Part shown: positions 41,056 through 41,720 of the stretch, piece by piece
Layout of the letters: each line of letters begins with the position of its first letter
Position numbering within the stretch: position 1 is the first letter of the stretch
Origin: Pseudomonas deceptionensis
GTDB taxonomy: Bacteria; Pseudomonadota; Gammaproteobacteria; Pseudomonadales; Pseudomonadaceae
NCBI RefSeq assembly: GCF_900106095.1
Contig: NZ_FNUD01000002.1
Coordinates: 620,001 to 684,000 of the forward strand
Direction of reading: 5' to 3'
Length of the DNA: 64,000 bases
Program-made: the position numbers and the translations under genes
Notes under the pieces: model-generated
What the model saw: only the letters and a program-made list of their open reading frames with translations
Database searches by the model: none
What the model was told of the DNA's origin: nothing

Positions 41056-41132
41056 GAGCGCGTAGGTCAGTTCCTACGACCACTGAGGCAAGGGACGGCT
41101 TCCGAGTTTTGAAGTCAGGCGTACTGTGCACC

Positions 41133-41340
41133 GTCACTGAAAAAAACAGTGACCGGGCATGAGAATCCGATGAACAATATCGAACTGAACGCCATCGCAA
41201 GATGGCATTCATTGTGTACAGTCCAACGTGTTATGGCGGCTGTGCGCGGGAGGCCTTTGTGCCTGCCGGGGTTCCTATTGTCCCGATTCTCAGCCCGCGT
41301 ACGGCTGCCACCATTTGCCTGAGAACCAAAAGTGGCAGCT
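41133..41340 (+). ncRNA. Candidate structured regulatory leader of the DUF3077-type gene
   Basis: Four helices can be drawn. (1) GTCACTG/CAGTGAC with A7 loop, 41133-41153. (2) GCCATC-GCAA-GATGGC, a GNRA tetraloop hairpin, 41191-41206. (3) A three-way junction: a 17-bp closing stem 41234-41250 with 41294-41310 (all pairs Watson-Crick or G-U), enclosing hairpins AGGC...GCCT (41251-41264) and CGGG...CCCG (41267-41285). (4) GCTGCCAC 41304-41311 can instead pair with GTGGCAGC 41332-41339, excluding the closing stem. Helix 4 ends 12 bases before the Shine-Dalgarno AGGAG. The design is switch-like. A 50-codon frame (ATG 41170 to TGA 41322) overlaps it and may be a leader peptide or chance. Confidence 0.5.
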
Positions 41341-41364
41341 CTAAATCCCATAGGAGCGCACTCA

Positions 41365-41628
41365 ATGGTTGATCATCCCCCAATCAAAACCCTCGGCACC
41401 GTCACCTTCGGCCCATGCGGCCAGGACAACCACGATCTGTTTCGCGTCAACCCCGACATACCCCTGCGCCAGGCGCTGGAACAGGTGTCGACGTTGCTGT
41501 ATTGCGCAAAAAAACTGGCGCTGGATGCCGCGCTGGACAAGGACTGTCAGCGCCATGCCTGGGCTTCGCATTACTTGTGCGACATGGGCAAGGCGGTGAT
41601 TGATGATGTGTGTTTGCGGGAGTTTTGA
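41365..41628 (+). CDS. Small DUF3077-type protein
   Basis: 87 residues from ATG 41365 (AGGAG eight bases upstream). It resembles the small Pseudomonas proteins of the DUF3077 group: KTLGTVTF near the start, a helix-rich middle LRQALEQVSTLLYCAKKLALDAALD, and a C-terminal helix with AWASHYLCDMGKAVIDDV. No signal peptide, membrane segment or catalytic motif is visible. Function unknown. It stands alone behind an unusually structured leader (41133-41340), which suggests RNA-level control. Confidence 0.8.
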   Translation: MVDHPPIKTLGTVTFGPCGQDNHDLFRVNPDIPLRQALEQVSTLLYCAKKLALDAALDKDCQRHAWASHYLCDMGKAVIDDVCLREF

Positions 41629-41644
41629 CGGGGCTTGTTGAGCC

Positions 41645-41699
41645 CTGTGGGAGCGAGCCTGCTCGCGAAAGTCATCGCGAGCAGGCTCGCTCCCACAGT
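41645..41699. repeat. REP hairpin, family A, downstream of argA
   Basis: CTGTGGGAGCGAGCCTGCTC, short spacer AAAGTCATC, inverse GCGAGCAGGCTCGCTCCCAC. Sits between the convergent small gene and argA. Confidence 0.85.
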
Positions 41700-41720
41700 T
41701 GAATTGTTCCTCGTCAGCGG

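Follow-up and report, generated by a model that had tools for sequence, protein, structure and literature searches.

A phage-type C4 antisense RNA in the leader of a chromosomal DUF3077 gene in Pseudomonas

In Pseudomonas deceptionensis, a small DUF3077 gene is preceded by a structured leader that turns out to be C4, an antisense RNA of phage type, in a chromosomal copy. In the 64,000-nucleotide stretch analyzed here (the window; positions 620,001 to 684,000 of contig NZ_FNUD01000002.1), an Rfam covariance model search of the whole length placed C4 (RF01695) at 41229-41315 with 61.5 bits against a gathering cut-off of 45 (E = 1.8e-9), and no other Rfam family exceeded its cut-off anywhere in the 64 kb. 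The first-pass annotation had assigned the layout to no named motif, which does not hold, and an unnamed novel riboswitch was rejected because the C4 score exceeds the cut-off. Its broader suggestion of a cis-regulatory RNA ahead of the gene is right in that the leader is a structured regulatory RNA; it is an antisense RNA and not primarily a ligand-type switch. We consider it very likely that leader and gene form a chromosomal C4 cassette in which C4 silences the adjoining DUF3077 gene. The identity of the RNA, its architecture, a covarying a'-a2 contact, a cognate b'-b2 contact, and the association with DUF3077 support this reading directly.

All features described here lie on the plus strand. 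The three-way junction recognized in the first-pass annotation agrees in coordinates and with the C4 covariance model: a 17-bp stem (41234-41250 with 41294-41310) closes hairpins at 41251-41264 and 41265-41287, and the three elements correspond to P1, P2, and P3 of C4. Folding of 41133-41360 yielded -95.2 kcal/mol (z = -5.98), and 0 of 200 shuffles were as low. Across an alignment of 80 loci, P1 and P2 were 99.5% paired with both-sided changes at 16 of 22 pairs (0/500 shuffles); P3, counted in 10 related leaders only, was 85% paired with no both-sided changes. The AUGG expected at the 5' end of C4 is present in the window and invariant in an alignment of 31 C4s, and the mature form would be expected to start at about 41235 (AU/GG). 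Between C4 and the upstream repeats lies the GNRA-capped hairpin that had been noted 5' of the junction (41191-41206, GCCATC-GCAA-GATGGC in the predicted fold). A further, isrK-like hairpin at 41133-41153 (GTCACTG-A7-CAGTGAC) has an A-rich loop and probably marks the transcript start; in the 10 related leaders, among which L028 and L178 are one and the same contig, its stem is fully paired (100%), and one of its seven pairs has changed on both sides. A putative -10 element of the leader promoter, TACTGT, lies at 41122-41127, with a parallel in phage P1. The TAnnnT pattern stands 5 to 8 nt ahead of the first hairpin in 94 of 97 C4 loci (the members of 149 distinct loci where the search pattern found a hairpin with 40 nt in front), compared to 8/97 at a control position about 100 nt farther upstream. 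Membership of the window in isrK itself (RF01394) was rejected at 27.2 bits against a cut-off of 50.

The main regulatory contacts are predicted to be a'-a2 and b'-b2, that is, an antisense RNA situated within the transcript of its own target. In the window, a' (TTCTCAG, 41287-41293) spans the P3/P1 junction and is perfectly complementary to a2 (CTGAGAA, 41319-41325), while b' (GTTCCTAT, 41271-41278) forms the P3 loop and faces b2 (ATAGGAGC, 41350-41357), which includes the Shine-Dalgarno sequence AGGAG (41352-41356) of the 87-residue DUF3077 gene (41365-41628). In the 80-locus alignment, 97.7% of a'-a2 cells were paired compared to 75.7% in shuffles, 154 cells were changed on both sides compared to 40.3, and the covariation score was 0.689 compared to 0.248 (0/500 shuffles for paired and for both-sided cells), with slid partners pairing at 33 to 48%. 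Of the 7 pairs, 6 show both-sided changes, and at one pair all four Watson-Crick combinations occur with nearly the same frequency (UA 19, AU 18, CG 18, GC 18). Two of the five measures, the number of pairs with both-sided changes and the number of pair types, were not above shuffles (335 and 495 of 500). An alignment-free test over 149 distinct loci out of 156 ranked cognate against noncognate targets at a mean of 0.93 for a' and 0.92 for b' (0/2000 permutations each). Single-genome sets count most here because related sequences inflate cognate tests, and within one genome, G005 (n = 40), the ranks were 0.92 and 0.89 (0/2000). The own target was best or joint best for 28/40 C4s in G005 and 19/22 in a second genome, G061, and not best for the remaining 12 and 3; the 40 distinct C4 loci of G005 carry 39 distinct a'/b' combinations.

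Upstream of C4, the family carries a1, a copy of a2. In 58 DUF3077 loci a1 tracks a' (cognate match 16.45 compared to 9.53 in permutations, 0/2000). The window a1 (ATGAGAA, 41159-41165) forms 6 of 7 pairs with a', and a candidate b1 (ACAATA, 41174-41179) is a weak, partial copy of the b target assigned by reading only; membership in c4-a1b1 (RF03163) was rejected for the window, which scored 17.6 bits against a cut-off of 46.7.

For processing, trans action, and repression we reason by analogy with the P1 literature. In phages P1 and P7, RNase P excises C4 by cleaving at its 5' end. We propose that a single transcript starting at the 5' hairpin would carry a1/b1, C4, a2/c2/b2, and the DUF3077 gene in that order, and that RNase P could free C4 as in P1/P7, leaving an RNA of about 77 nt. 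Freed C4 would then place a' on a2 and b' on b2, covering the Shine-Dalgarno sequence and keeping DUF3077 translation off. While a1 is still attached, its pairing with a', together with that of c' (GCTGCCAC, 41304-41311, the end of the P1 3' strand) with c2 (GTGGCAGC, 41332-41339), is predicted to keep the RNA in an anti-C4 fold, such that leader cleavage, or kinetic folding, may decide whether C4 forms.

The association with DUF3077 reaches well beyond the window. We screened 70 DUF3077 loci, sampled among the better-scoring ones, with a covariance model derived from 31 C4s; 59 had C4 upstream and 11 lacked it. Two loci outside the 70, L006 (a weak second DUF3077 match in the P. deceptionensis genome) and L066 (on a viral contig), were also without C4. 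Of the first 20 loci scanned, the Rfam C4 model was positive in 19 and c4-a1b1 was above cut-off in 15. Among the 11 C4-less loci, six have c4-a1b1 above cut-off (L135, L033, L150, L140, L035, and L141), four others have a leader that looks similar by eye, and that of L026 is degenerate. Loci with c4-a1b1 alone look as if C4 had dropped out between the a1/b1 and a2/b2 repeats, and L033 seems to show a decayed C4. Silencing of such orphan targets in trans by other C4s of the host was considered for L135 and L141 and rejected, no fully fitting C4 having been seen: by eye, G061 held no C4 with a fitting a', and among the C4s of G128, compared with a C4-less DUF3077 locus, only one fitted at 6 of 7 positions, with a different b'.

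The gene itself is DUF3077, as had been annotated (PF11275, E = 4e-33, 113.9 bits). Its dN/dS against eight relatives was 0.05 to 0.43 (at most 0.25 in seven of eight), the ratios being rough for the three relatives in which dS was saturated (>1), and the substitution pattern indicates purifying selection. The predicted fold comprises three strands and two helices (pLDDT 75.6, pTM 0.60). Fold searches with this model found no match at E <= 0.001 in the PDB (top hit Aqs1, E = 2.2) or among viral proteins, and a sequence search of solved structures gave a top match of E = 0.096. Under an alternative hypothesis with the same C4 control, C4 and DUF3077 make up an addiction cassette or one resembling a toxin/antitoxin pair: DUF3077 would damage the cell, like Icd of P1, and C4 would serve as antidote. 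P1 C4 governs icd, an inhibitor of cell division according to the P1 record annotation and the available text of PMC8198154, and small proteins behind antisense RNAs in many dispersed copies would suit such a role. We regard this as doubtful, given that PADLOC returned no match for the window protein, that neither fold search yielded a match within the E-value limit, and that the 11 C4-less loci persist among the 70, which is unexpected for a potent toxin.

Within the genus, where up to 27 candidates per genome were scored, C4 was present in at least 138 of 149 genomes, in at least 137 above cut-off, and PF11275 in 117 of 149. In an order-wide sample, C4 was found in 20 of 145 genomes (that of P. 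deceptionensis included) with 1 to 6 matches each. Copy numbers can be much higher: G005 has 42 C4 matches (39 above cut-off) and G061 has 24. The P. deceptionensis genome has three further C4s, near metabolic and transport genes as judged from their open reading frames. In G005, 36 of the 42 C4s are followed at 38 to 63 nt by an open reading frame of at least 25 residues with a loosely defined Shine-Dalgarno match; these 36 first frames comprise 23 DUF6124, 3 Bro-N, and 2 DUF3077 members; at least one of the remainder seems to be spurious. The DUF3077 frame is the second one at some loci, behind a short frame. C4s also occur in tandem, with three spaced by about 850 nt in G005 (contig C1, 3628832-3630617) and two pairs about 150 to 170 nt apart in G061 (contig C1, 1136623-1136875 and 868644-868881). 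At three G005 loci (L098, L107, and L057), C4 precedes an antirepressor-like Bro-N protein; that of L098 starts MIKxTPNPP like DUF6124 proteins, suggesting an N-terminal piece common to C4-controlled genes.

Phage connections are also present. C4 matches were found in 32 phage records, and Rha-family or repressor-like genes lay near C4 in two of the four records opened (H2 and H33); near C4 in H4 and H5 no such gene was found, save a 'transcriptional regulator' in H4. The window DUF3077 protein (41365-41625) matches phrog_36471 (PHROG 36471; E = 4.6e-16), and therefore some phage or prophage members of DUF3077 exist. Outside chromosomes, DUF3077 was found on one plasmid and one viral contig; neither tblastn of two DUF3077 proteins nor blastn of the DNA of one DUF3077 locus gave a match in the phage collection. 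The cassette could thus be read as a remnant of phage immunity, with C4 kept to silence matching antirepressor mRNAs of incoming phages and DUF3077 secondary, as the phage records with their Rha-family or repressor-like neighbors and the Bro-N proteins behind 3 of the 36 G005 C4s might suggest. This is unlikely, as a' and b' match the gene immediately downstream and DUF3077 appears to be under purifying selection.

The leader also contains the perfect pairing of 41304-41311 with 41332-41339, here c'-c2, on which the first-pass annotation had built its switch. Shuffled downstream DNA equals the score of this match alone in 13/2000 cases for the segment and 87/500 for the whole C4, and the pairing is credible only because it is conserved in related leaders and in the 80 loci. 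In the 10 related leaders, 93.8% of c'-c2 cells are paired, but 57/500 shuffles reach the covariation score. In the 80 loci, 92.5% are paired compared to 90.8% in shuffles (0/500), 15 cells are changed on both sides compared to 4.5, and the covariation score is 0.171 compared to 0.143 (0/500 each); both-sided changes fall at 4 of 8 pairs, a figure reached by 44/500 shuffles, and a control slid by -3 still pairs at 76.7%. Upstream of homologous genes, the arms were found to be conserved and to covary, modestly so in c'-c2. Among relatives, one position differs in the P1 5' strand, in c', and in c2 alike, with the P1 pair AU in 5 and GC in 5 of 10 rows and the c'-c2 pair CG in 4, UA in 4, UG in 1, and unpaired in 1. 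As a specificity contact c'-c2 was rejected: its cognate rank is near chance (0.54 to 0.61 by group), with permutations as high in 111 and 63 of 2000 cases within single genomes, in 1 of 2000 for the DUF3077 set, and in 0 of 2000 for the whole set. Because the cognate test is weak for c', c2 is best read from these alignments as a conserved but nondiscriminating likeness of the P1 5' strand, and no specificity element. A family rule by which c' would pair more strongly with c2 than with the P1 5' strand was likewise rejected, as this holds in only 34 of 149 loci.

Folding predictions, made as equilibrium ensembles of 58 DUF3077 leaders that ignore cotranscriptional kinetics and the cell, assign the larger part in the alternative fold to a1. 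In the full leader, P1 exceeded a probability of 0.5 in 19/58, c'-c2 in 34/58, and pairing of a' with the upstream part in 38/58. P1 rose above 0.5 in 57/58 leaders when the part upstream of C4 was deleted, in 40/58 with c2 masked, in 50/58 with a1 masked, and in 56/58 with both masked. For the window, the full leader gave a P1 probability of 0.01; masking raised it to 0.98 (a1) or 0.67 (c2), and deleting the part upstream of C4 to 0.98. Exchanging the leader for ones from loci with other a' sequences raised mean P1 from 0.33 to 0.82 (own lower in 53/58, p = 2.4e-9), and exchanging the downstream part, c2 included, gave 0.39 compared to 0.33 (own lower in 35/58, p = 0.11). From these masking and swap ensembles it is therefore predicted that a1-a' and c'-c2 jointly form the anti-C4 fold, with a1 the stronger half. 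The two exclusive folds of the first-pass annotation survive as a model prediction for 34 of 58 leaders, with the amendment that a1 is needed as well as the 41332-41339 arm.

These predictions could also describe a purely cis-acting two-state leader, in which c'-c2 and a1-a' compete with P1 and C4 never becomes a separate antisense RNA. The 92.5% conservation of c'-c2, the position varying in all three strands, the mutual exclusion of the folds in the ensembles, and the need for the cognate leader to open P1 all fit such a switch. Against it, the strongest covariation is that of a'-a2, which in cis would cross P1 by our reading of the geometry, and the downstream swap barely alters P1. Moreover, a'-a2 and b'-b2 are the annotated C4 targets in phage P1, where the available text of PMC8546580 describes C4 as trans-acting, and C4-like RNAs of Acinetobacter baumannii appear to be processed in RNA-seq, according to the part of PMC5320573 available. 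We therefore hold a cis-only switch to be quite unlikely and retain the C4 antisense cassette as our reading.

In the window the cassette sits between gshA and argA. A near-perfect inverted repeat (GGGAGCGAGCCTGCTCGCGA...) at 41643-41700, between the DUF3077 gene and argA, is presumably akin to the REP-type palindromes of Pseudomonas, which it resembles; microRNA matches from Rfam at 41644-41699, under cut-offs, were rejected as chance matches drawn by this repeat. A protein scan gave eight relatives from named genomes, all Pseudomonas and all with C4 upstream (P. bubulae at 94%, P. psychrophila at 91% and 85%, P. saxonica, P. helleri, two P. lundensis, and one other species). Five of the eight have gshA and argA on either side of the cassette, with gshA about 2.4 kb off in L174; at L173, argA lies beside the cassette and the contig ends before gshA. 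Two close cassette homologues, L175 and L176, had neither gene in their stretches, each of which contains a tRNA about 1.2 kb downstream. No C4 was found within 1.5 kb on either side of argA in 18 other genomes of the genus that were searched. In four of these 18, gshA stands beside argA without C4, separated by 169 nt in G006 and by about 0.5 kb in G008, G012, and G013 (about 69% identity), and these intervals look like empty slots. That the cassette is a decaying, functionless scrap of prophage, as the phage nature of C4 and the degenerate a1b1 of the window could hint, is very improbable given the both-sided changes that preserve a'-a2 and P1 among the 10 related leaders, the dN/dS of 0.05 to 0.43, and the gshA and argA flanks in five of eight relatives, argA adjoining in a sixth.

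Pseudomonas chromosomes thus hold up to dozens of self-matched C4-plus-gene units: a phage immunity RNA has become numerous in a single genus, in units whose antisense codes are matched and diverging. These units form a ready-made collection in which the evolution of antisense specificity can be studied. Through them, the orphan DUF3077 proteins, and the DUF6124 and Bro-N proteins beside them, are connected with an antisense RNA that is already known, which provides a handle on their switching. We further speculate that up to about 40 self-silencing RNA/gene cassettes per chromosome could form a coded array, each with its own antisense key. The uncut leader would mask C4 through a1-a' and c'-c2, cutting would free C4 and close the gene, and a foreign transcript with matching a/b sites would sequester C4 and so allow the gene to be expressed, making each cassette an RNA sensor with a small protein as its output. 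Although this extension is a long shot, a phage leader with a matching a/b site, for example, would be a trigger if it were true.

Chromosomal C4 is already known: the available text of Weinberg 2010 (PMC2864571) lists C4 in Proteobacteria and phages. The open-access literature, as far as its accessible text extends, does not connect C4 with DUF3077 or DUF6124, and describes neither C4 copies that each match their own gene nor c'-c2; DUF3077 is mentioned once, in an unrelated context, and DUF6124 not at all. With the C4 of phages P1 and P7 (RF01695), the window cassette shares the covariance model, P1/P2/P3, and the a'/b' contacts with a2/b2 at the Shine-Dalgarno sequence. The order a1-b1-c4-a2-b2-icd annotated in the P1 record is also shared, and the annotated P1c4 -10 stands, by reading, 6 nt before the first hairpin, a distance similar to that in the window. 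A c2-like match is present as well, with GGTAGCAGG opposite CCTGCCACC forming 8 of 9 pairs by reading; the P1 record annotates no target there, nor c2 or an anti-C4 fold, making c'-c2 a third C4-mRNA complementarity that is unannotated in phage P1. The cassette differs from the immI operon c4-icd-ant in being chromosomal, between gshA and argA, and in having one DUF3077 gene instead of icd-ant; with DUF3077 following C4, gshA/argA flanks, and two DUF3077 proteins without a phage tblastn match, it does not belong to the P1-type operon. Unlike in P1/P7, paralogous copies are many per genome in the genus Pseudomonas. Among related leaders, c4-a1b1 (RF03163) shares the a1/b1 arrangement upstream of C4, although the window itself scores below its cut-off. 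The IsrK/Gifsy-1 leader is linked to an antirepressor. It is a prophage leader RNA of Salmonella (RF01394; PMC4825925, as far as its text is available), and the 5' part of the window matches it weakly. The closest chromosomal parallel lies in A. baumannii, where the available part of PMC5320573 describes 21 similar chromosomal C4-like RNAs (Group 1 sRNAs), 15 of them full-length, with a variable a' loop. That text names no targets for them, whereas C4 in Pseudomonas is usually followed by a matching target and its gene.
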